A stretch of 37,958 nt of DNA, from the IMG/VR virus record IMGVR_UViG_3300037076_000069, positions 1 to 37,958 of that record. One strand, written 5' to 3'. The translations under genes and the position numbers were made by a program. This DNA comes from a virus. The notes below the pieces were generated by a model, which saw only the letters and a list, made by a program, of their open reading frames with translations, ran no database searches and had not been told where the DNA came from. Below, in pieces: positions 97 to 37,958 of the stretch; position 1 is the stretch's first letter, and every line of letters begins with the position of its first letter.

Positions 97-161
97 GCGA
101 AACACTGGAATCTCTGATGGCGAACGCTGGAGATGTGCCGCGAGCGGAGAAAAAGGACTGA
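1..161 (+). CDS. Hypothetical cassette protein, C-terminal part (gene begins at 37628)
   Basis: C-terminal section of a 131-residue protein whose start is at 37628 on the other side of the junction. This part is rich in charged residues (KFRVAELEKQLDSSLRTVRL) and looks like a short coiled coil. The TGA stop (159-161) lies inside attC site B and is followed four bases later by the next start codon. Function unknown. Confidence 0.75.
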   Translation, partial: STAKFRVAELEKQLDSSLRTVRLNEDELADARETLESLMANAGDVPRAEKKD

Positions 162-245
162 CTCTATGACCACAAAAAAGACACGCAAACCTGCGACGAA
201 ATCGAAGCGGAAATCCCGCTCGTTGGCACTGGGGACTTGTTCGGC
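119..245 (+). other. attC-like recombination site B
   Basis: Inverse core GGCGAAC (119-125), left arm GTGCCGCGAGCGG (135-147), right arm CCGCTCGTTGGCAC (216-229), core GTTCGGC (239-245). The arms pair over about 12 bases with one or two unpaired bases, as in attC hairpins. The inverse core is the exact complement of the core of site A. The central spacer holds the stop of one gene and an SD-like AAGGA plus start of the next. Confidence 0.75.
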
Positions 246-456
246 GATTCCGTTCGTGAACAAGGAGGGCCACGTCATGCGACTGGCCCGCTCGATGACT
301 CTCCGCGAGCTGCTAAAAATGGGCGTTGTGGAAATCCACCTCGCGAAACCAGGAACCCCTCTACGGGAAGGCGAATGGCGTGACGCTGAACCGGACGCCT
401 CTTCGCCGAACTCCGCGTATGAGCCGACGCGCCAGAAAACAACAGACTCAAAATAA
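166..456 (+). CDS. Hypothetical small basic cassette protein
   Basis: 96 residues if started at ATG 166, which has AAGGA about eight bases upstream and sits inside attC site B. An internal ATG at 277 has a stronger signal (AAGGAGG, eight bases away) and would give 59 residues lying wholly within the cassette. The N-terminal extension is very rich in Lys and Arg and is partly encoded by the attC site, so the 277 start may be the ancestral one. The body contains an amphipathic segment (SMTLRELLKMGVVEIHLAKP). The stop lies in the spacer of site C. No family recognised. Confidence 0.6.
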   Translation: MTTKKTRKPATKSKRKSRSLALGTCSAIPFVNKEGHVMRLARSMTLRELLKMGVVEIHLAKPGTPLREGEWRDAEPDASSPNSAYEPTRQKTTDSK

Positions 457-514
457 CATGGAAACTCAAGAAAACGGACAGTCAGGCGCGTTGGCTCTGG
501 ACGCATGGTTAGCC
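405..514 (+). other. attC-like recombination site C
   Basis: Inverse core GCCGAAC (405-411), left arm GAGCCGACGCGCC (421-433), right arm GGCGCGTTGGCTC (485-497; 12 of 13 pair), core GTTAGCC (508-514). The inverse core is the exact complement of the core of site B. The spacer contains TAA, one base, then ATG of the next gene. Confidence 0.8.
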
Positions 515-766
515 GAATTTCTTATGATTAAATATCCAAAATATCGAGTCTCGCAGTGGCTAGATACCAGCGAGGAATCCATGTCGAAGCCAGAGGCCGA
601 CATTGTTTTCGGGGTGCAAACGCAACGCTTCAAAGGCGGGGCGTGGATGCACGTATCGCAAAACGGTAAGGCTCTGTTTTTCAAGACCGACGAAGACGCC
701 ACGAAAGCGTGTGAATCTCTCTTGGCTAACGACCGCTCTTCAGCCACGCCGGAGAAAATGCCATGA
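458..766 (+). CDS. Hypothetical cassette protein
   Basis: 102 residues from ATG 458, or 80 residues from ATG 524, which lies just after the core of site C in the context AATTTCTTATG also seen (with small changes) after cores E and F. Neither start has a clear SD. The shorter version starts IKYPKYRVSQWLD and has a middle section (FKGGAWMHVSQNGKALFFKT) that looks like a small beta-rich domain. The stop overlaps the next start (ATGA, 763-766) inside site D. Function unknown. Confidence 0.6.
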   Translation: METQENGQSGALALDAWLAEFLMIKYPKYRVSQWLDTSEESMSKPEADIVFGVQTQRFKGGAWMHVSQNGKALFFKTDEDATKACESLLANDRSSATPEKMP

Positions 767-817
767 ACAACAAAACAGGCAAAGCCCCGGCGTTGCGCTG
801 TGAGGCAATGGTTAGGC
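724..817 (+). other. attC-like recombination site D
   Basis: Inverse core GGCTAAC (724-730), left arm CAGCCACGCCGG (741-752), right arm CCGGCGTTGCGCTG (787-800) pairing with two extra bases, core GTTAGGC (811-817), which fits the GTTRRRY consensus exactly. The inverse core is the exact complement of the core of site C. Confidence 0.8.
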
Positions 818-6094: not shown

Positions 6095-6754
6095 CTAGAT
6101 GTTAAATTTCTGCTTAATACTGGAAATAGTGGCCTTGTGCGCAGCGTCTTGAGTAGCAGCAAGGGCAGTGTTGAGCTTTACCGCTATGTCGGGATTCGAT
6201 TCCTTGAAGTCCTGCACGCCCTGAATCGTCGCCACGAGCGCACCCTTTGTCTTCTTAAGCAGCCACCACATCACGCCGATGGACGACGGGCAGAAGATTG
6301 CCAGCGCGATCAATCCTAAGACCGGAAGCGAAACGGCAAATCCGAACATATTAAATCCGGTACCTTCGATTTTCTTGCCGTCCACTTTACTTAGCCTTTC
6401 GTTTAGTAAAACCAACTGTCCTTGGTTTTCCTTAAGGCCATCAGCAAGGGACTTGATTGCCTCATTGCTGCCCTTTTCAGGTGTTTTGGCTTCAATCCTA
6501 TGCTCTGGCTCGCCAAGGCTGGCGGATAGCTTCTGGGCAACAGGGACCGACTCAGCCGGGGCCGTAATGGTGCGCGCCACATAGTCAGCCGCTTGCCGTT
6601 CGCCTTCAACTTGGGCTGCTGGCTTGCTGATCGGCGCTGGAACCTTGGACTGGAATATGCGAAGCTGAGGCGTTTTGCACCCGCTAAGCAGAAGCACGCC
6701 GACTACGACGAAGTAAACAGCGGGGATAACAAATCCGCGTGAGTTAGTTTTCAT
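6095..6754 (-). CDS. Lipoprotein with internal membrane segment, spanin candidate
   Basis: 219 residues, start overlapping the tail gene stop (TAATG). The N-terminus has a signal with lipobox LLLSGC (Cys about residue 26). A Pro/Ala-rich and coiled-coil region follows, then a strong membrane segment around residues 137-165 (VLGLIALAIF, GVMWWLL). One protein with an outer-membrane lipid anchor and an inner-membrane segment is the plan of unimolecular spanins, which fuse the two membranes at lysis. Unlike classic ones it has about 55 residues after the membrane segment. A virion or lysis-control lipoprotein is the alternative. Confidence 0.65.
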   Translation of the reverse strand: MKTNSRGFVIPAVYFVVVGVLLLSGCKTPQLRIFQSKVPAPISKPAAQVEGERQAADYVARTITAPAESVPVAQKLSASLGEPEHRIEAKTPEKGSNEAIKSLADGLKENQGQLVLLNERLSKVDGKKIEGTGFNMFGFAVSLPVLGLIALAIFCPSSIGVMWWLLKKTKGALVATIQGVQDFKESNPDIAVKLNTALAATQDAAHKATISSIKQKFNI

Positions 6755-9054
6755 TACGGGTTTAATGTTGTATAGGTAAATACCCCAACTATTACAGGGT
6801 TGGTGTTAGGAAAGTTGGCATGCGTTGCTCCCCCTATTTGAATCTCTCCACTAATTTCGTAAGCGTTAGCGTATAGTTGCGCCCCCTTAGTTAATGATCC
6901 TGTGTTATAAACAAAGCTAAGAGACCCCGCACCTGCATCATTCTGCTGGTTAGATATGACGTAAGGTAAACCGGCAATAGTAGCTGCCCCTGTTCCGCTA
7001 GGAGCATTATTCGTTGTTATCGTAATGAAGCACGTAACGACATTCCCTATCTTCTGGAAGTACCCACCATTTACCGATGTAAACGACGCGGTTCCTCCAA
7101 ACTTAAGGACTGGGCTCCACAGGCCAAACTCCATCATCGCTGTGCATTTCTGAAATAAAGAACTGCCATCGGTCCCCGCGTTTTCACCTGAGTTCTTATG
7201 GGTAAATCCATCAACTATGGGATAGCACAAGCGATTATTTCCACTAAAGACAGCTTCGTAAAGATGATTAAAATCTCCTTGGCTGTAGTAATCAGCCATG
7301 TTGCGGATATAGGTCTGCGACTGTTCGCTCCAAATTATATTCGAGTTAGACGAAACCCTATAGGCGTTTATCTCGTACTGGCTCTGCGCGAAACCTGATC
7401 CAAATGTTTGAAGGAATCTATTATTGATTCCTTCGCAGTATATTCCAGTAAATAGATGGTGCGATAAGTTAGATGAAATAGCTACATCTACAGACTCAAT
7501 AATTATCCCCTGGCCCGTCAAATATCCATAATACGAATATATTCCGCATGTCTTACTATTATTATCTGCAACCGTCCAGTGACTCGATGCTGGCGCTTCT
7601 CCCGCGTCATGCCCGTTTACCGATGGATTATATCTACCACTAGTTCCCACTCCGGTTAGATATACATTGTTAAAATTAAGTCCATTTATATCAGCATACG
7701 TCGAAATTCCTCTGAACGTAAATCCAGCGATGTAAGTATCGTTAATTCCACCGCCCCAACATGCAGATATCCTAATCCCGGTTACAAAATTAGCTATGCG
7801 ACAGTTCTTAATTCTAAGTAGCGGAACACCGGCAAGGTTTAGACCGGAACATAATTTAGTCCCGATGATATGAAGGTTTTCCAGAACTATATGCTCGCAA
7901 AATGCGAGTACCGCGTTAGAACTGTCGTCGCCGTGTGCAAGCACGTTGCTTACCCTAGTCCCGGATGCGTTGTAATTGGCGGTATCTAGCGCATAATCCG
8001 TATAATTGGCCGACGGGTAATCGACAAAAATGGATGAACAGTTGTTTGCTCCGAACTCAGTGAAAAAATTACCAGTACCATCGCCAAAAAGCCTCATCCC
8101 TGGAGCAAGAAGCAGCTTCGACGTAACCCTATACCTTCCCGCTGGAAAATAAACAGCACCCGGAGTCGATCCTAGCTCGGTGGATCTAGTTGTCCCTCTC
8201 CATGTAAATTTGCAAACATCGTATATAGCGGCATTTATCGCCGCCGCGTCATCGGTTACGCCATCGCCCTTTGCTCCGTAGCGCTTTACGTTACAAGCAC
8301 CAGACCAAATTGCTTTTAGCCGCGTTCCATCGGCTGCGACGATAACCGTTCCGCCGTTGTCTGCCGTAGTCGTGTCGGCCTTGTCAACGTAGAACTGGCC
8401 GCCGCCACCGTCGCCATTGACGTAATATCCTAGAAGCTGTATGAGTGCCCCAGTTGTTGACGATGTGTAGACCAATGCCTTCATCGCTGCCACGCTAGAC
8501 GCCTGGGCAAAGAATGAACCAAATGGAACTGTTGCAGGAACTAGATAGGTAGGGGAACCGTTAGAATCAAACGCGAGCACGTTACCTTTACGATCTGAAG
8601 TGAGAATCGAACTGGCCGGATCTCCAACCGGAAAATGAAGTGCGCTTGCGTCGGATAGAGTAAGCTCTTTATCTACGTTCGTAAGTTTATCTAGTGCTTG
8701 CTCAATCATCGGAACAGTTAGCGCACCAGTAGCTAGAAAGCTGGTCTGCTGTGTCTTAGGTGTTGCAAGCGAAACCGTGATATAGTCGCCAACTTGTACG
8801 CCATGCGTGCCCCTGCCCACTATAGTAATAGATCCGGTCAGCATGTTGTTCTGCGTATCATATCCACCGCCAGTAACGGTGAAGTCTGAGTTCCGCGTCA
8901 AAACCGTCGGCGGTGATAACGCCGTAGGACTTGAGCCAGAGTCGGTAACGAGCAAATCAGTCGTGAGCTGAAAAGGGAACGTGACGGCCAGCGTCGCCGG
9001 CAGGCTTGCGATAATGTACGTGCCAACTTGCGCAGATTGATTGCTTAAGCTCAT
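6754..9054 (-). CDS. Tail fibre / tailspike with pectate-lyase fold
   Basis: 766 residues. The N-terminal 150 or so resemble a podovirus virion-attachment region. A pectate-lyase superfamily entry motif (NVKRYGAKGDGVTDDAAAIN, about residues 255-274) starts a right-handed beta-helix with many short Asn/Gly-rich turns to about residue 640. The last 120 residues look like a C-terminal beta domain. Beta-helix tail proteins bind or degrade surface polysaccharide, so this is the likely receptor-recognition protein. Catalytic residues cannot be assigned by eye. Codon choice in the beta-helix is more AT-rich than in neighbours, consistent with exchange of host-range modules. Confidence 0.88.
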   Translation of the reverse strand: MSLSNQSAQVGTYIIASLPATLAVTFPFQLTTDLLVTDSGSSPTALSPPTVLTRNSDFTVTGGGYDTQNNMLTGSITIVGRGTHGVQVGDYITVSLATPKTQQTSFLATGALTVPMIEQALDKLTNVDKELTLSDASALHFPVGDPASSILTSDRKGNVLAFDSNGSPTYLVPATVPFGSFFAQASSVAAMKALVYTSSTTGALIQLLGYYVNGDGGGGQFYVDKADTTTADNGGTVIVAADGTRLKAIWSGACNVKRYGAKGDGVTDDAAAINAAIYDVCKFTWRGTTRSTELGSTPGAVYFPAGRYRVTSKLLLAPGMRLFGDGTGNFFTEFGANNCSSIFVDYPSANYTDYALDTANYNASGTRVSNVLAHGDDSSNAVLAFCEHIVLENLHIIGTKLCSGLNLAGVPLLRIKNCRIANFVTGIRISACWGGGINDTYIAGFTFRGISTYADINGLNFNNVYLTGVGTSGRYNPSVNGHDAGEAPASSHWTVADNNSKTCGIYSYYGYLTGQGIIIESVDVAISSNLSHHLFTGIYCEGINNRFLQTFGSGFAQSQYEINAYRVSSNSNIIWSEQSQTYIRNMADYYSQGDFNHLYEAVFSGNNRLCYPIVDGFTHKNSGENAGTDGSSLFQKCTAMMEFGLWSPVLKFGGTASFTSVNGGYFQKIGNVVTCFITITTNNAPSGTGAATIAGLPYVISNQQNDAGAGSLSFVYNTGSLTKGAQLYANAYEISGEIQIGGATHANFPNTNPVIVGVFTYTTLNP

Positions 9055-10482: not shown

Positions 10483-13400
10483 TTTCGGTAGGAGGTGTTT
10501 GGGTCGCGATCCGCTTTTATCTGCGCTTTGGTTAGCGGTACATTTTCGCGCAGTTTGGGAATAGTCATTTCGATTGATTGTCCGAATGTTTTTGGCGCTC
10601 GCTTCTTACTATCCAAATCAATCGCGATATTTTGCACGAGTTGAGGGACTAAAGCTGCAACCTGATCCCAGATTATTCTGTCAGTTTGGCCGTATTGTAC
10701 GGATTTTGACATGCGGCTTATCGGATTTACGATAGGAGCAGATTCAGAAAGTGCTAACACAGCGGCAATCGTTCCTGCTACTACGCCTTTATCCGTCTTA
10801 TCTTTCTTACTTAAATGAGAAGAAGAAACACGCATAAAAGTGGAGCCTAGTTGCGCGGAAATAAGAATGGGAGAAGGCAAAACAAGTTGGTGATCGCCTA
10901 TACGAATACGTCCAAACTTGACGTCTTTTTCGCTTCGTTTTTCAGACGGGTCATAGAGTCCGCCAAAAATACGATCATTTTCGTCTTTAGTGGCGTCGAT
11001 TGCGCCCCAAATAAACATCGCTGTTCCAACCGATCCAACCTTGAGGAGACGTGCAATCGTGTTCGCCTCGGCGTTTGTCAGCTTGTCCACGCCGCGAATG
11101 TTTGCGCGAACATTTTCAACTAGCCCCATGCCTAAGCCAAGCGGGCTTGCCTCTAAAGTTTGCCGAATATGATTCAAAGGAGTTTTAACGATCCCTTTAG
11201 TCACAAAAGACTTTATAAAATTCGACAGAGCATAGCGGTAAATGTCCCATTGCGGGGCGTTCGGATTGTCTTTTTCAAGACGGGCAAGATCGCCGTTAAT
11301 CTTCTTCGATAGCGCGTTTGATTCCTGTAAGGCGGACCGCTGCGCATACTCAAAAGCCTCTTTACGGTGCGCCGCCTGAACCATAGGATCGGTTACATCG
11401 ACTCCGTTGGCTATGTCGTGAGCAAGTAGCTTCTCAAGGCGAAGGTTAAAATCTGCCGTAATCAAAGGAGCCTTTTCAGCCGCATGGAGATTGCCTGTGA
11501 CGTAATCTTCCCAGTGCATTTGCTTGTTGTTATACATCGGGTTTCCAAGCTCTGCCTTCAAGTCACTCTTGCCTGTGGTCAATTGCTTCCACCCTTCCCG
11601 CATACCTTGCGTGACGAGCTTAGAATAAAACTTACCTAGCCCGGTGAACTCTGCGCCTGACTCCATATTCGCCTTTTCAGAAACGGCCCTAAACCCTGGC
11701 GTGCGTCGAATGATTGCACCTAGAGCCTCTTTTGCTGGCATTTCGGCAATGCGGGCAATCGAGAAACCGAACAGCTTCCCCAGAGTATGATAGCCGCTCA
11801 GGACAGCCGCTCGTGTGTAACGAGAGCCCTTATCCATCAATTTCTGAGCTTGTGACTTTTTATCGTCTATCGCTTTTTGGCGATCAATCGCCAAGTCCTG
11901 CTTTAGCCGCTGAATGTCGGAATTGATTTTGTGGCCTTCCTCGTCGAGTGCAACCGGCGCACGTTTTGGCGCGGTTTCATAATCGCCTGTTGCGATACGA
12001 TCTTGCAGTTCGAGTATGCGCGCATTGGCGCGAGCTTTCCAGATGTTTAACCGTTGCTCGTCGGTGAGTTCTTTTTTCCCGAAAATCTCTTCGTGCTGTG
12101 CTTTGAGTTCATCGCGCTGTGCCTCTAGGCGTTTCGCTTCCTCATCCAGTTCAATTGACTTCTTCTCCTTTAGAATCCGCTTACGGGTAGCGATCTCATT
12201 GGACAGGTTTTCAATCTGTTTCGTGAGTCTATCCTTTACGATTTCAAGCGGTGTTTTTGGTTCAGGCTTCGGCTCATGTTCCGCTTTGGGCTGCAATCTA
12301 TCGCGTGCATTTTGCCGCTCTTCTTTGAGCTTAGCTAACTGCTCTTCACGCGCCTTAATCTCTGGCGATGTTGGCTGCTGTTTTTTGCCTTTTGTAAAAG
12401 GAGCGTCATCCTTGAGTTGTTTTTCAATGGCCTCAATCTGTCGGTCCAAAGATTCGATTCTAACCTCTTCCGCTGTCTTTGGCGTATTGGGTTCAGCCTG
12501 ATAGGTGCGCGGTTTATTTTCGTTCATCTTCTGAACGCCTTTAACCTGTGCCGCTAACTTTGCCTCTTCTTCGCTAGGTGTGCGACGTTCTACCCCAGTC
12601 TTTGAAAGTCTATCGCCAGCCTCTAAGTCTTCAAGTTTTGAGACTTGCTGAAGTTGGCCCTTAATATCGCGCAGTTGATCCGAAATCTCGTCATGCGTAA
12701 GCGGCTTAAACTCGCCATATCCAGAAATAGCATCTTGTGCCTCACGGCGGGTTATCTCAGGATTGGCTTTCTTTAGTTCAGCATGAACTGCATCAACAAT
12801 CGCATCACGACCTTTCATGCCTTCCTCGATAAAACTTCTAGCCAATCCACTCGCAACGCTATTTAGCCTAGATTTACCATTCTTTTCAGGATCAGAAGTG
12901 AGCCGATCAATAAAGTTGGAACGAATCGTGTTCTGATATTCCTTACGGCTGGCTTTCCAAATGGCGTCCAGGTGCGGCTTTATTTTCTCGCCAAACTCTT
13001 TGACCATTTCTACCGCGAAATCAGCGCCTTTCGCTAGATAGTCAGCGCCAACCACGGCCATATCAGACAGATTTTCTGTGCTAAGTAGCCCGCTTGTATT
13101 ATCGCCTTCAACTACGCTTTTCGAAATGATTTTCTCTAGGCGTGCTGAAATTCTAGAACGCGCTGTATCTGCTTGCTCTGAAAGATACGCCCTAACCTTC
13201 CCGCTAGGCGGGGCAGATTTACGAGGAGTTCTTGAACTAAGCGCTGAATCAATCGCTTGCTCTGGCGTTTTAACCTCTGAAAGTTTAGCTATGTGGGCGT
13301 CAAGCTCCGCATTTTTTGCTTTCAACTCCTCTATCCTTGCAACGAGCTGCGTCTTCTCTTCTGGCGTGAGTTCAGCGCCGCCTTTGGCTGTGCGCAAAAG

Positions 13401-27127: not shown

Positions 27128-27433
27128 CTATTCCTTTATTGTCTTACGTTTCGGTTTCGTATCTGGGCTATCAAGTCCCTTTTTGATTCGTTTCCTAATA
27201 GCGATAAAGAGCGCACGGCCACCGTCCAGTTTGGCGGCAAGGTGAGAGTCAAAGAGCGGGTTAAGCGATCCGCCGAACGCAGGGTTCTCGAATCCGCTGA
27301 ACGCCTCAAGCTCGTCAAAGACAAGCTGTTGATCTACGCTGCGGTGATTAGGCGCACCAAATACCGACAGGAACGCCTTATTTAGCCGCTTAGATTTTCC
27401 GATGTCTTCGGAAACTTCCGGGGTCTCACTCAT
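27128..27433 (-). CDS. Bbp19-like small phage protein
   Basis: 101 residues. The pattern AFLSVFGAPNHRSVDQQLVF, then DELEAFSGF and DGGRALFIAIRKRIKKGL resembles the Bbp19-like family found next to podovirus portal genes (one small helical domain ending in GR-x-x-x-x-x-I). Role unknown, likely in head assembly. Confidence 0.65.
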   Translation of the reverse strand: MSETPEVSEDIGKSKRLNKAFLSVFGAPNHRSVDQQLVFDELEAFSGFENPAFGGSLNPLFDSHLAAKLDGGRALFIAIRKRIKKGLDSPDTKPKRKTIKE

Positions 27434-27477
27434 GATGGTTCCTCAGCTCTGACTATCTTTTTACATCAAGTCAATGA

Positions 27478-29181
27478 TTAACCACCAGCCGCTTGCATGG
27501 CCTGATCCTGCACCTGTTGCGGTGCGCCTCCCAAGTTCTTCGCGGCCTTGCTCATCTGTTCAGCTTGCATCATGGCGTTCTGTTTCTCCTGTTGAGCCTG
27601 ACGCTGAGCGCGGATTTGATCACGTTTCTTGATCGGCATGAGAAGTTTCGAATCAACGCCGTTATTGAGCGCGTACTTGCGAGCGCCTTCGTCTAGGTCG
27701 AAATTATCTAGGATGTCAGGACGCGCCTGAGCAAGCTGCCCAAGCCCTTCCATCGTATTATTGAAACCGGCATTCTGTAGCGCCTTTAGCGCAAGTGAGA
27801 TTCGGCTCGTGATCGATATGGACGGCATCGCAATCGACTGCGTGCCATCTGGGTTTTGCACCATCAAACTTTGCGGAGCCTGACCGAATAAGCCTTTGCG
27901 GTAAAGGATGCCAAAGTCGCGGAGCAACATTGGGTTCAAGAACTCCGTAATGCGGCGATAGAAAACCGGCGTGAACTGCTCTAGCTTCTCGCCGATGCGC
28001 TGCGCAATCTCGTAGGCCGTCATCTTCTTATCGGCTAGCTGCTCCAGCATTGTGAACATGTTCACATAAAAATGCTTGTTGATGGCGTCTTTCAGCTCAT
28101 CCAAGTCTTCCTTAAGGTCGCGTCCATCGCCTTGCGTCAGCCACTCACGCGGAACAACGCCCGCCTTCATGTCATCGGCATTTACCGTTGTCCTACCGCC
28201 AGGGCGCAAATCTGTGTCGCCTTCCATCGTGTCAGGCTCAAGGAATCGCGGATAAGCCTTCAACTCGTGTAGCGCGTGCCCGTACTGCTTCACATAATTC
28301 GCCTGCCTAGCATCGCACAACGCATCAAATGCCGGTGAGTATCCCCAGACGCTACCAGTGCCCCACTCGTCAAACCGGCTCACGAAATAGGGCATCTCAT
28401 CGTAGCCGCTCACCTCGCAGCAATGGCGCGTCTCACGCTCAATGTAGACGCTCGCAATCGGCTTGTTGTCGCCGGTCATGCGTCCTTTGATTCGCTTGCT
28501 ATCCTCACGCGGGAACACGGCATGGATGAACTTGAACTTCTTTTCTTCGCTCTTACCGCTCTCACTCATCTTCTTGAGCTGCTCACTCAACTGATCCTCT
28601 CCAAACCACTGGCGAGCCTGCCGAACGGTCAATTCAAACTCACGCCGCACCGTGTCAACAATACCCTCGTCGTTCTCGGCAATGTCGCAATGCCACGGTT
28701 CAAATTGGCGATAGTTGAGCGCCGTGCGCTTTCCCTCGTCGCAGAACATGATGCCCGTGCCAATTGTTCCGCACTGCATGTAATCAGTCGAAACCTTCGC
28801 GTAGAAATTGCTCTTCTGCTTCTCGCGCATTACGACTTCGGACGCATTCGCTAGCCATTGCCGCGCCGAGTCCAAGTCATCCTCGCGCCCTTCCGCCTTC
28901 AAAAACTCAGGCGGTTCAAACACTGCCCACGGTTCATTCGCAGGCGTCAGCCAGTTAAGCTGCCCAGCCCGCAGAACCTTAGCCGCAAGCACGCCCGTCG
29001 AGTCGTACAGCTTATCACTCCAGCCCGTAGTTCCCTCCGTCTTCTGAGTGTTTACGTTGGAGCGATTCGATAGGAAGTAGTTGGTTATGGATTGCCATGC
29101 GCTATCGAAGCGGGCTTTTCGCTTTGATTCACCAGTCTCGAATGCTTTAATCTGCTCCTCAGCTAATTTGTCGGTACTCAT
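27478..29181 (-). CDS. Portal / head-to-tail connector (gp8-like)
   Basis: 567 residues. Clear portal features: an N-terminal helical part, KLYDSTGVLAAKVLRAGQLN, GTIGTGIMFCDEGKR, RETRHCCEVSGYDEMPYFVS, the ALCDARQANYVKQYGHALHE helix, and MTAYEIAQRIGEKLEQFTPV of the T7-type head-tail connecting protein family. The C-terminus is Gln/Met-rich. The dodecamer forms the DNA entry pore and docks terminase. Confidence 0.92.
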   Translation of the reverse strand: MSTDKLAEEQIKAFETGESKRKARFDSAWQSITNYFLSNRSNVNTQKTEGTTGWSDKLYDSTGVLAAKVLRAGQLNWLTPANEPWAVFEPPEFLKAEGREDDLDSARQWLANASEVVMREKQKSNFYAKVSTDYMQCGTIGTGIMFCDEGKRTALNYRQFEPWHCDIAENDEGIVDTVRREFELTVRQARQWFGEDQLSEQLKKMSESGKSEEKKFKFIHAVFPREDSKRIKGRMTGDNKPIASVYIERETRHCCEVSGYDEMPYFVSRFDEWGTGSVWGYSPAFDALCDARQANYVKQYGHALHELKAYPRFLEPDTMEGDTDLRPGGRTTVNADDMKAGVVPREWLTQGDGRDLKEDLDELKDAINKHFYVNMFTMLEQLADKKMTAYEIAQRIGEKLEQFTPVFYRRITEFLNPMLLRDFGILYRKGLFGQAPQSLMVQNPDGTQSIAMPSISITSRISLALKALQNAGFNNTMEGLGQLAQARPDILDNFDLDEGARKYALNNGVDSKLLMPIKKRDQIRAQRQAQQEKQNAMMQAEQMSKAAKNLGGAPQQVQDQAMQAAGG

Positions 29182-29196
29182 GTAAAATTGGGTCGA

Positions 29197-29562
29197 TTAA
29201 AACGTCTTCCCTTTTGTACCCGATGCCGCAGATCCTGGAGAAAATCCGCCAGTATCCCCAGCGAAGATCGTCTTCTTTATGCTCTTCTTCATGGCTTCCT
29301 GCTGAACTAAGTCCATCTGCGCCCGCAGAACGTCAGCCCCGCTCGCACTTGTCGGCGATGATGTCGGTAACGCAGCAGCTGCCGCGGCAGCGTCATCAGC
29401 CTTTGCATTAGCCGCCGCCTTCTCATCAGTCGTGAAGCCCTTTCCGCTCACATAGTTCTTCAACAGCTGAGCCGGTGCGCTTCCAATCGGACTCGCGAAA
29501 CTATTCGCAATGTCTTTTGGCTTTAGGGATTTCGGTATAAGTCTTGCTCCGCCTACGCTCAT
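29197..29562 (-). CDS. Hypothetical structural-block protein
   Basis: 121 residues with a basic N-terminus, an Ala-rich middle (DDAAAAAAALPTSS) and a helical segment (VLRAQMDLVQQEAMKKSIKK). Small Ala-rich proteins often lie just upstream of portal genes in such phages. Function unknown. Confidence 0.6.
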   Translation of the reverse strand: MSVGGARLIPKSLKPKDIANSFASPIGSAPAQLLKNYVSGKGFTTDEKAAANAKADDAAAAAAALPTSSPTSASGADVLRAQMDLVQQEAMKKSIKKTIFAGDTGGFSPGSAASGTKGKTF

Positions 29563-31196: not shown

Positions 31197-32597
31197 TTAG
31201 CGAATAACTGCGCGATTTCGATTTGTAAAGTATGAACTACCTACATAGCTGTGCGGATTTGGACCGCGTAGTATAGGGCGTCTTGGCGCGCTATCCCCGC
31301 CACGTGCAAACGGAGTGCCATCGATTAGACCTAGCCGATACGCTTCAGCCATCGTGCGTATCGAGTCGGCACCATGTGAGAATTCGTCGTGTACAGGGTT
31401 GTCATTGATCGCTCCTCCCTGAACCTGCTCCTTGCTGTGGTAGTACTCAAGGCAGTCGAGCCCGCTTGGGAACGTGCGCTCTGCCCTCTGCCAGCCTTTG
31501 CCACAGTTTGTCGCGTGGATATAGCACCGGGGTAGCAACGCTCGCAGCTCGTTGATACCAAGCCACAGATCAGGCGTGCGCGACACCACATTGATGTTGT
31601 TTAGCCCGGCTTCCTTGAGGTACGTTCGATACGTCTTACCGCTAGCGCCTAGCGCATCAGCATCATGCGGCAGATAGTTCATGGCAACGCGCACGCCAAA
31701 CTTGGATTCCCACATGCTTATCTGCGCGACGTAGAAAGATGGCATCTCATGCGAGCGACAGAAATAATCCAACACGCATATGTCGCGACCAATGAACTGC
31801 ACAAGCCATATGCTAGTGAAGTCCGATTGCCCGATGTCCCAAAACGTAAACGCTGGCGAGTCAGGCGAAGCTACAAAGTCGATTATTCGATTCTGCGCTC
31901 GCATGGCGTTGATCTGCGGACCGTAGATTGAATTGTCGATGGCTGCGCTGAAGTCGCACTCATACTCGCGAGCGTAAGATTGGTCGCCCATCGCCCGCCG
32001 CGCCGCTTCCAACTCTTCACGCGAAAAGATTCCGCTTGTACTAGCAGGCAAGAACATCGTGTAGAAATCGGGATCTAGGCGCGCTTTGTCGTAAATTCGG
32101 AAGAACGCGTTACGCCCCTTTGGCGTGCCGATGAACACCGCCCATCCCTGGCGATCCGTCAGCGCCGGATAAATAACATCGTAGTACGCCTGCGCGTCCA
32201 TGTCGGCGAATTCGTCTAGGATCACACCATCAAGGTAGATGCCGCGCAGCGCGTCGTAATTGTCCGCGCCGTAGAGCGTCACCCTCGCACCGTTCGGCAG
32301 GTCAACGCGCAACTCGCTCTCGTTAGCCTTAGCGCCAGGAATAGCCGCTGTGTACCGCTTGAGATAGTCCCACGCCACAGCCTTAGCCTGAACGCGATAA
32401 GGCGCAACGTATGCAAAGCGCGGCTGCTCCCTCTCGCACATGAGCGCCCGCTCAATAAGGTCATTGATGCAGGCAACCGTCTTCCCTCCGCGCCGATGCA
32501 CCACCAAGCAAGCCCACCTCTGGCTTCGCTCATGGAAAGCGTCAAACGCCGCCCGCGCCTCATACCCCGTGTAAACGTCAATCTGCTTTGATGCCAT
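31197..32597 (-). CDS. Terminase large subunit
   Basis: 466 residues. ATPase: Walker A-like HRRGGKTV at residues 34-41, Walker B GVILDEF at 124-130 with the catalytic Glu, and coupling motif GTPKGRN at 157-163. Nuclease: first Asp in FWDIGQSDF near residue 254, second acidic cluster in HDADALG near 311, and the final HGADSIR. It pumps and cuts the genome during packaging with the small subunit encoded just upstream. Confidence 0.96.
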   Translation of the reverse strand: MASKQIDVYTGYEARAAFDAFHERSQRWACLVVHRRGGKTVACINDLIERALMCEREQPRFAYVAPYRVQAKAVAWDYLKRYTAAIPGAKANESELRVDLPNGARVTLYGADNYDALRGIYLDGVILDEFADMDAQAYYDVIYPALTDRQGWAVFIGTPKGRNAFFRIYDKARLDPDFYTMFLPASTSGIFSREELEAARRAMGDQSYAREYECDFSAAIDNSIYGPQINAMRAQNRIIDFVASPDSPAFTFWDIGQSDFTSIWLVQFIGRDICVLDYFCRSHEMPSFYVAQISMWESKFGVRVAMNYLPHDADALGASGKTYRTYLKEAGLNNINVVSRTPDLWLGINELRALLPRCYIHATNCGKGWQRAERTFPSGLDCLEYYHSKEQVQGGAINDNPVHDEFSHGADSIRTMAEAYRLGLIDGTPFARGGDSAPRRPILRGPNPHSYVGSSYFTNRNRAVIR

Positions 32598-32709
32598 ACT
32601 TTACCTTTAGCTCGTTAAGCTTAATTCGCATCAAATCAAGTTCTAGCTTTAGGTCGTTGATGATCATTAGCAGTGCGCGCACGTCCTCATCTGTCTCGGG
32701 GTCAATCAT
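32578..32709 (-). CDS. Tiny coiled-coil protein between terminase genes
   Basis: 43 residues: an acidic start (IDPETDEDVRALLM) and a Leu-rich heptad helix (INDLKLELDLMRIKLNELKV). Start overlaps the small-terminase stop (ATGA) and the end overlaps the large-subunit start by 20 bases. This double coupling and the heptads support a real gene; it may bridge or regulate the terminase. Role is inferred. Confidence 0.6.
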   Translation of the reverse strand: MIDPETDEDVRALLMIINDLKLELDLMRIKLNELKVKYGIKAD

Positions 32710-33161
32710 TGCGGCTTGTCGCTCTTCGGAGCCTTGCCCCGGTGCACCACTATCTGCGTCGTCTGGATCGGCCCGCCGTCCTTGCCGCTCAGCTCCACCG
32801 CCTGCTTGTCGCCGTACCTACGCGGAGCCAGCTTTGCCATCAGCCATTTCTTTGTGTCGACGCGAAGCTTGCAACGAGCAACCCATTCGCCGTCCATCGT
32901 TTCGCTTCCGTCTTCACGTTCTTTCGTGTCGTGCAAGCTGTCCTCTGAAATCTTTACGATGTCATCGGCCCACGACTCTTGCTGTATATCGCGTGCGCGT
33001 GCGTATGCGTAAACTCTCGCCTCGTCCTCATTTAACCACTTGTAAAACCAAGCTCTTGTGAATCCAACGTCGTCGCAAATGTCCGTAAGCAGTTCACCGG
33101 CTGAGATTCGAGAGAGAATATCAGGGAAAACAGCTTCGATGGGTTGGGTTGTCTTGGCCAT
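32706..33161 (-). CDS. Terminase small subunit (Sf6/gp1-like)
   Basis: 151 residues. The N-terminal HTH (DILSRISAGELLTDICDDVG, then FTRAWFYKWLNEDEARVYAY) and the central ARARDIQQESWADDIVKISED plus LRVDTKKWLMAKLAPRRYGD are the typical sequence of Sf6-type small terminases. It recognises the packaging start on DNA. Confidence 0.9.
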   Translation of the reverse strand: MAKTTQPIEAVFPDILSRISAGELLTDICDDVGFTRAWFYKWLNEDEARVYAYARARDIQQESWADDIVKISEDSLHDTKEREDGSETMDGEWVARCKLRVDTKKWLMAKLAPRRYGDKQAVELSGKDGGPIQTTQIVVHRGKAPKSDKPQ

Positions 33162-33344
33162 TGGTATTATCCGATTTTTGCTCCTTTTTAGGCTGAAAAG
33201 TCAAGCTAAATGAAGGACCCTGCCTGAAGTCCACATTGCTTTGCGTAAGATACCGACCGCAAAGGTGAGGAGTTGCGACAGGCATGGGAAAGTTACGTTA
33301 CTGTAATGTGAACGATTACTTGACAGTTTGGGGTGTTGGCCCTT

Positions 33345-36776: not shown

Positions 36777-37361
36777 ATGAAATCAATACTCATTGATCTG
36801 AATGCTTGCCGCGAATCTATCGCGTGGGTAGAAGAAAAAAAAATCGAAACGCTTCCCGACGCTTGGGCTAAGTGCGAGCGAGGCGACTGGATGCTTTGGC
36901 TGGCTGCAAAGCGCGGCGTAGATCGAAAGAAACTCGTATTCGTGGCCTGCCAATGCGCTCGCACGGCGCTCAAGTACACGAAAGACGAACGTGTTTTGAG
37001 GTGCATCGAAACAGTGGAAGCATGGACACGCGGAGAAGTTTCGATTGAAGACGTGAAAAGTGCTAGAAAAGTCGCTGACGCTGGCGCTGCTTACGCTGCT
37101 AGCGCTGCTTACGCTGCTAGCGCTGCTTACGCTGCTGCTGACGCTGCTTACGCTGCTGCTGCTTACGCTGCTGCTTACGCTGCTTACGCTGCTGCTGACG
37201 CTGCTAGCGCTGCTGACGCTGCTGCTTACGCTGCTTACGCTGCTGCTGCTTACGCTGCTGCTTACGCTGCTGACGCTGCTGACGCTGCTTACTACGCTCG
37301 TATCAAAGCATGGAAAGAATGCGCTGACATCGTTCGCAAACATCTTCCCGAGTGCACATGA
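36777..37361 (+). CDS. Imm-5-like phage protein with Ala-rich repeat
   Basis: 194 residues. The N-terminal 95 (AWAKCERGDWMLWLAAKRGV, KLVFVACQCARTALKY, IETVEAWTRGEVSIEDVKSA) and the C-terminal KECADIVRKHLPE match the family called putative immunity protein Imm-5-like, common in phages. Between them, residues about 100-172 are a helix of Ala-Ala-Tyr/Asp/Ser repeats, all Ala encoded by GCT. Two other frames stay open here only because the repeat lacks stops. First gene of the rightward arm. Real function unknown. Confidence 0.75.
   Translation: MKSILIDLNACRESIAWVEEKKIETLPDAWAKCERGDWMLWLAAKRGVDRKKLVFVACQCARTALKYTKDERVLRCIETVEAWTRGEVSIEDVKSARKVADAGAAYAASAAYAASAAYAAADAAYAAAAYAAAYAAYAAADAASAADAAAYAAYAAAAYAAAYAADAADAAYYARIKAWKECADIVRKHLPECT
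37075..37292 (+). repeat. GCT-rich low-complexity coding repeat
   Basis: Long run built from GCT with interspersed TAC, GAC and AGC codons. This composition is prone to slippage in whole codons, changing helix length while keeping frame. Confidence 0.9.
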
Positions 37362-37573
37362 AACTCGTCGGAAAACAAGCTCAGGATCTAGTAGCTGGCG
37401 ACTCCATCGACTTTTACGGCACCGTCAGCAAGGTGCTCCGCGTCAAGGAACACGCACAGACTTGCGGCCCCGGTTGCCAGTGTTACGAACTGCTCATTCG
37501 CGGTTCGGCCATGCAGTACGTTTACCGTTTTGAAAACGAGCCGGTTAAAGTTTTTGAATCTACGGAAATTTAA
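37358..37573 (+). CDS. Hypothetical small protein before attC A
   Basis: 71 residues from ATG 37358, overlapping the previous stop (ATGA). A small beta-rich fold is likely (DLVAGDSIDFYGTVSKVLRV, then AMQYVYRFENEPVKVF) with a Cys triplet (CGPGCQC). Its TAA stop forms part of the inverse core of attC A, yet no complementary core (GTTAAAT) lies upstream, so it may be the resident gene next to which the cassettes landed. Confidence 0.65.
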   Translation: MKLVGKQAQDLVAGDSIDFYGTVSKVLRVKEHAQTCGPGCQCYELLIRGSAMQYVYRFENEPVKVFESTEI

Positions 37574-37689
37574 CAACCCAGCTCTGCCGCGAGCCGGGAA
37601 CGAATCTAAAACGAAGGAATAAATATTATGAAATCTGAATCTCCAAAAACGGAACGAGCAGGCTCGTTGGCAGTGGCGCATGGTTCGCC
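37568..37689 (+). other. attC-like recombination site A
   Basis: Inverse core ATTTAAC (37568-37574, exact RYYYAAC), left arm CTGCCGCGAGCC (within 37584-37595), right arm GGCTCGTTGGCAG (37661-37673), core GTTCGCC (37683-37689). Core is the exact complement of the inverse core of site B across the window junction. The spacer contains GAAGGA and ATG 37628 of the next gene. Confidence 0.75.
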
Positions 37690-37958
37690 TCTGTTGCTGC
37701 TAGAGGTAGGCGACTACGTAGAGATCTTTCGCGATGGCGTAGATATGTGGCCAACCCGTGGATATATAAGCATGACGAAGGCAAATGGATCGATTCATTT
37801 GCGGAATGCGACGGCGATAGCATGGCCGGACGAAGTGAGATTAATACACAAAGGGGACGCGCTCAGCACAGCTAAATTCAGGGTCGCCGAGCTTGAAAAA
37901 CAGCTAGATAGCTCGCTGCGCACCGTGCGTCTGAACGAGGACGAACTAGCGGATGCAC
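37628..37958 (+). CDS. Hypothetical cassette protein, N-terminal part (continues 1-161)
   Basis: N-terminal section of a 131-residue protein. ATG 37628 has GAAGGA nine bases upstream and lies inside attC A. Residues 14-30 are read from the attC core region; the body begins LLLLEVGDYVEIFRDGVDMW, a small beta-barrel-like start, and the C-terminal third is a charged helix. Function unknown. Confidence 0.7.
   Translation, partial: MKSESPKTERAGSLAVAHGSPLLLLEVGDYVEIFRDGVDMWPTRGYISMTKANGSIHLRNATAIAWPDEVRLIHKGDALSTAKFRVAELEKQLDSSLRTVRLNEDELADA
37863..37958. repeat. Terminal overlap, right copy
   Basis: Exact copy of bases 1-96. Joining the ends gives a unit of 37,862 bases and restores a 131-residue gene (37628 to 161). 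Confidence 0.95.

Follow-up and report, generated by a model that had tools for sequence, protein, structure and literature searches.

The viral record IMGVR_UViG_3300037076_000069 was analysed over its whole length of 37958 bp (hereafter the window). The record covers a complete virus, which a 96-bp terminal repeat closes into a circular unit of 37862 bp, and its phage genes code for an Erf annealing protein, a RecE/YqaJ-type exonuclease, a terminase large subunit (TerL), a head-tail adaptor and tail proteins. Between the early genes, six attC-like sites (A to F) were located with a Python stem/core scanner, all on a single strand, from position 37568 across the circular junction to 1678; no match to these sites was found in Rfam. 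Ahead of them, ORF 36777-37361 contains a long Ala/Tyr/Asp/Ser repeat (37080-37300, GCTGCTTACGCT units), to which a repetitive gene end in the viral locus L003 is related.

All features are given on the plus strand, i.e. in the orientation of the genes. Site A (37568-37689, read from the sequence and with the scanner; its canonical attC lies on the other strand) has the left core ATTTAAC, the right core GTTCGCC and a spacer with AAGGA and an ATG at 37628. This ATG opens the ORF of unit A (131 aa, leader MKSESPKTERAGSLAVAHGS), which runs from 37628 to 37862 and then from 1 to 161, across the circular junction, and stops at TGA 159-161 inside the spacer of site B. Site B (119-245) is bounded by GGCGAAC (crossover AA^C at 124/125) and GTTCGGC, and holds TGA 159, AAGGA and ATG 166, the start of the 96-aa ORF of unit B (166-456), whose leader ends in RSLALGTCS. 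Site C (405-514; GCCGAAC and GTTAGCC) carries TAA 454 and ATG 458 in its spacer, and the ORF of unit C that begins there (458-766, 102 aa) has the leader METQENGQSGALALDAWLA; similar attC leaders occur in loci G012, L195 and L196. In site D (724-817; GGCTAAC and GTTAGGC), GGAG is followed by ATG 763, overlapping TGA 764, and the 109-aa ORF of unit D (763-1092) matches the PHROG domain phrog_21496 from residue 19 on, directly behind the right core of the site. Peptides predicted to span the core in this array include SLALGTCSAIPF and ALALDAWLAEF.

As for the last two sites, no through-running spacer start is present, and units E and F have their own starts behind the right core. Site E (1032-1118; GCCTAAC and GTTAGCC) contains the stop of unit D (TAG 1090), and the 44-aa ORF of unit E (1131-1265) starts 13 nt past the right core and ends with a TAA within the next left core. 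Site F (1260-1351; GGCTAAC and GTTATAC) is followed by the 117-aa ORF of unit F (1358-1711), which crosses the last core of the array into the phage backbone, with its stop at 1709-1711 and the next ATG at 1717. This last core, GTATAAC (1672-1678), is the exact complement of the right core of site F and marks the attI-proximal end of the array.

Each right core and the left core that follows it are perfect 7-nt complements, in all six pairs of the window (GTTCGCC/GGCGAAC, GTTCGGC/GCCGAAC, GTTAGCC/GGCTAAC, GTTAGGC/GCCTAAC, GTTAGCC/GGCTAAC and GTTATAC/GTATAAC); the two cores within one site are often mismatched. Complementary cores bounding each inter-site stretch are the signature of integron cassettes (TTRRRY vs. 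RYYYAA). A CALIN, a cassette array lacking an integrase, consists of at least two close and co-stranded attC with R and L boxes: here, six such sites lie within 1.7 kb, and no integron integrase (TIGR02249) was found in the window record. Since a complete integron has intI and attI in cis, the window, devoid of intI, is not one, and intI was found in its relatives G012, G034 and G021. Neither does the array follow the usual cassette layout, with attC 3' of the gene, as its sites are inverted relative to the genes. The position of attC at the 3' end of the gene is the usual orientation, but it is not required for recombination.

Joining the two flanks of the array (..ATTTAA / CAAAGG..) would predict an empty site on the minus strand with the sequence GTTAAAT; none was found through L002, L003, the TerL relatives or ORF 37358. 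L002, a phage fragment, shares with the window an Erf that is 97-98% identical but an exonuclease that is only 68% identical, which indicates a mosaic early region, and it carries an extra gene (1139-1522) between the two. An attC-like match in L002 was rejected as coincidental coding sequence, and L194 was discarded as a false positive. The TerL and portal proteins of the window, used as queries, had no relatives among the array-bearing records, and these phages are therefore mosaic or diverse.

Starts within the attC spacers

The original prediction placed stop/start pairs in the spacers of sites B, C and D (TGA-CTCT-ATG, TAA-C-ATG and ATGA, respectively), SD-like motifs in A, B and D, and new frames running open through the right arm and core. 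All three points hold: the coordinates of the pairs are correct, AAGGA precedes the starts of A and B and GGAG that of D, and, beyond the right core, the frames of A, B, C and D remain open for 112, 71, 85 and 92 codons. No SD-like motif lies ahead of the start in site C (458); among the backbone genes of the window, five out of 25 have one. The start at 37628 in site A is a fourth spacer start, beyond the pairs in B, C and D. At the latter three sites the downstream start lies a few bases from the upstream stop, and this spacing suggests that translation of neighbouring units may be coupled there. When the spacers of the window were shuffled, sites reaching at least 60 codons numbered 0.76 on average, and the probability of at least four such sites out of six was 0.0008. 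The codon phase at the right core is 2 in A and B, 0 in C and 1 in D. The ATGA overlap was dropped as evidence in its own right because a spacing of -4 is also the commonest one in bacterial attC (15 out of 31), where any TGA following an A or a G yields it.

Arrays of the same kind were searched for with arm-derived patterns in IMG/VR contigs, including relatives reached via Erf, and the layout was found in 44 further viral loci, i.e. a non-redundant set of 45 with the window. For most of these contigs the viral status is the IMG/VR assignment; the TerL family phrog_2 was present in eight out of 32, and TerL is carried by the window and by the circular record G017. Judging solely from the resemblance of the attC family, the hosts are probably Verrucomicrobiota/Opitutaceae. 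Every detected site is spacer-started in L107 (5/5) and in G012 (four scanned sites, with three more read by eye). The ratio of GTTAG to GTTCG cores, considered as a marker of phage vs. bacterial origin, was rejected since it gave no separation.

Over the non-redundant set, the frame of a spacer ATG stays open beyond the right core in 64 out of 100 viral attC, vs. 25.1 expected with shuffled spacers (maximum of 36 in 200 trials); in 37 it continues for 60 codons or more (9.6 expected). Random re-pairing of the attC with the downstream cassettes is a stronger test than spacer shuffling: a spacer ATG whose frame extends 60 codons or more beyond the core is present in 36 out of 99 viral attC, vs. 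19.5 after re-pairing, and none of the 300 trials reached that number. When each cassette cluster is represented once (n = 68), the count remains significantly higher, at 20-22 vs. about 13. Among the leaders, no homologous pairs of a divergence suited to dN/dS were available. The chromosomal arrays of Verrucomicrobiota, which have the same attC family, served as control and were read both in the motif direction, antisense to the bacterial genes, and in the canonical one. No excess was found in either, with 4 vs. 4.5 re-paired in the motif direction and 6 vs. 8.9 in the bacterial genes' own direction (at least 20 codons).

These counts bear on the view that the spacer starts are incidental, the ribosomes using the downstream starts 277, 524 and 808 or others, and that the open frames are due to chance in GC-rich DNA. 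Alternative ATG codons do exist, and shuffled sites have a spacer ATG reading past the core in a quarter of the cases; yet the viral counts at both thresholds are far higher than the shuffled ones, and bacteria show no excess. The similarity of ORF 166-456 to a protein of the phage contig L013 begins at F30, ahead of the alternative start 277; as evidence for the start it is open to some doubt because codon 31 is an in-frame GTG. In unit D, the phrog_21496 match begins right behind the core, so that even the alternative start 808 lies inside site D. Incidental starts are therefore judged unlikely.

Orientation of the sites and boundaries of the unit

In all 11 cases with an integrase gene (eight bacterial and three viral, the latter in G012, G021 and G034), intI lies downstream of the attC motif and is co-directional with it. 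In a classical integron, intI is located at the attI end and diverges from the array; therefore, the canonical attC direction is the reverse of the motif direction assigned here. Relative to the latter, bacterial cassette genes are mostly antisense (41 vs. 9 sense) and viral ones mostly sense (30 vs. 8 antisense), and it follows that the phage genes are opposite to normal cassettes. Sites A and B have an additional base in the L box (TT vs. G), and it is located where an inverted site should have it according to a rule that is established attC biology. The viral integrases, found in three records with this attC family, match TIGR02249, two of them above the curated cut-off; their genes are at 27297-28271 in G012 (L168), 32406-33308 in G034 (L169) and 28474-29355 in G021 (L170). 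G034 has a 127-bp terminal repeat and is circular.

The boundaries of the moving unit can be read in two comparisons. In G012, an identical stretch of 368 bp (100%), comprising an attC and an ORF, occurs twice, from precisely the AAC of the left core to the GCCGAACA of the next; the copied unit is therefore an attC followed by its ORF. Similarly, L020 and L018 have in common an upstream cassette ending in GTCTAAC, after which L018 goes straight to one attC, whereas L020 has an additional attC+ORF unit exactly at GTCTAA^C; this unit ends in GCCGAAC and is followed by an attC of the same family as in L018. In both cases the crossover maps to AA^C as read along the genes, corresponding to G^TT on the canonical strand. 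On recombination of a single folded strand by IntI, the way in which integron cassettes move, the two comparisons bear indirectly. As for the pair L141/L151, in which the next attC is also common up to the right core, it is compatible but ambiguous, and fits the reversed model only if this attC represents an independent copy belonging to a common attC family.

The original prediction had assumed that a start in the attC serves the next cassette, that the crossover falls in different codon phases and that an incoming cassette would not always stay in frame. The mixed phases are correct at the right core (16/16/11 in the viral set), but the right core is not the crossover point. An inverted attC brings its start together with its own ORF, and start, right arm and ORF form one mobile unit; since recombination cannot separate them, the mixed phases are harmless, and the expected loss of frame is not borne out. 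A normally oriented attC at the 3' end of a gene, its start initiating the next cassette and recombination at the right core breaking two frames out of three, would equally accommodate the stop/start pairs, which are real, and the mixed phases. It conflicts with the position of intI (11/11), the direction of the bacterial genes and the left-core crossover seen in the G012 duplication and in L018/L020; moreover, free exchange at the right core would not predict frame matching above random re-pairing. We regard this layout as very improbable.

The same observations weigh against reading the sites as inactive relics of a capture long past that have become ordinary intergenic or coding sequence. 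The lack of intI in the window and the heterogeneous attC lengths (87-127 nt) would suit such decay; nevertheless, the L boxes are intact, as is each of the six core pairs, and the perfect G012 duplication and the L018/L020 difference reflect recent unit-wise movement in such arrays, which makes relics a highly unlikely explanation.

Proposed role of the inverted attC

Taken together, the sequences directly show the array, its stop/start pairs, their recurrence in other loci, the frame matching and the inverted orientation of the sites, and we consider it quite likely that, in this reversed integrase-less cassette array (CALIN) of the 37.9-kb phage, attC is a start-bearing 5' leader. Read in gene orientation, the unit runs from the AA^C of one left core through the left arm, the loop and the right arm and core to the ORF and on to the RYYYAA of the following left core, the loop providing the start codon, often with an SD-like motif ahead. 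The attC would move with its own gene and encode its first 15-25 residues. Most leader ORFs, having no stop of their own, cross the next core and terminate in the next loop beside the next start, so that the hairpin could act as a stop-start hub for termination-reinitiation along the early phage operon. Mobility in the window phage would depend on an IntI supplied by the host or a co-infecting phage, and the benefit would be that any inserted unit could be translated wherever it landed in the operon. Selection of the cassettes for translation in a phage operon had been put forward in the original prediction; the hub pattern, far above chance in many viral arrays, agrees with it, but the part in which a start serves the neighbouring cassette is not supported.

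Concerning the ends of these ORFs, a next site was detected for 27 leader ORFs, and 18 of them run across its left core: 15 stop in the next arm or loop, and three read past the loop, among which unit D of the window, which stops inside the next attC. The other nine terminate sooner, most of them in long intervals. Of the six ORFs in the window, five reach the next core without a stop. As most ORFs end in the next attC, the C-terminal tail of an ORF varies with its neighbour. In 40 out of 56 RNA folds, the start region was less paired than the attC on average, with unpaired values of 0.83, 0.76, 0.85 and 0.63 in the window, and SD-like motifs precede 13 out of 47 spacer starts (6.4 expected), i.e. 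a minority of them.

Not all viral cassettes have this layout. In 18 out of 99, all frames close soon after the core and the cassettes have their own starts behind it, some closing every frame within 12 codons past the core; in L161, the ATG overlaps the stop of the leader (ATGA). In this second cassette class, the leader can act by reinitiation only. Such cases would fit a leader that is a short regulatory ORF, like ORF-11 of attI1, stopping behind the core with reinitiation at the gene's own start and no fusion. Extended to the array as a whole, this explanation is unlikely, because units A-D of the window and over 30 further viral units have a leader that passes without interruption into a long ORF; it probably holds for the second class and not for A-D. 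Many classical-type viral cassettes, closed soon after the core, in L104-L161 have a common 5' stretch such as TTAGGCATAGCGATTAACGACATACAAAAATG, which suggests a common 5' leader.

Known systems and further observations

Integron cassettes are usually promoterless, with attC behind the gene, and their translation depends on position and on attC barriers. A reversed cassette with the start inside attC would solve expression in any operon, and a recombination site based on DNA structure could then double as coding sequence and mRNA leader. Beyond the window, we lean, with some reserve, towards widespread, probably verrucomicrobial, phages having their own cassette class, in which the 5' attC would combine recombination hairpin, ribosome loop, start, leader and preceding stop; some carry intI and could shuffle accessory genes during infection, which would make phages places where cassettes may be assembled and shuffled.

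Phage CALINs, i.e. attC clusters without integrase, are known from TJE1, P12002L and PH101, where they recombine with IntI1 (Qi et al. 2023, PMC9892861). The window array resembles them as a phage-borne attC cluster lacking an integrase; that paper makes no mention of a reversed gene orientation, of start codons in attC or of translation. In Tetrasphaera phage TJE1 (L190), our scanner found a single attC of 60 nt without a spacer start (1016-1075), lying between orf2, which stops at 1046, and orf3, which starts at 1072 and thus at the core. In class 1 integrons, termination-reinitiation occurs via a short ORF in attC or attI1 (ORF-11 coupling; reviewed in PMC8876359). That short ORF belongs to the upstream cassette or to attI and ends before the gene, whereas in the window the start is part of the gene's own attC, in one uninterrupted frame with the gene. 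Treponema integrons have an atypical, reversed intI, transcribed toward attI (PMC3607928). There, as in G012, intI and cassette genes are co-directional, but what is reversed in G012 is the cassette genes, intI keeping the classical position with respect to attC. Finally, the chromosomal integrons of Verrucomicrobiota (Opitutaceae) share the attC right-arm family of sites E and F, yet their genes are in the canonical direction and are not started in attC. A non-exhaustive literature search gave no description of reversed cassettes with attC as a start-bearing 5' leader; phage CALINs and attC-borne short ORFs are known, and the recurrent viral reversed cassettes started in attC appear to be new.

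Two further features of these arrays were observed. On the reverse strand of L004 (near 6453-7124) and in L011 (3413-4222), frames remain open through at least one following attC (287 and 256 aa, respectively), possibly giving fused cassette proteins. CxxC-rich peptides are encoded within attC spacers, namely CTKCKKWSVDDEPCEC on the reverse strand of L020 (some 280-330 nt upstream from the attC at 12563-12674) and CKHRFSRIYCPICKG in L151 (1844-1977), and part of a zinc-binding domain may possibly lie inside the recombination site.
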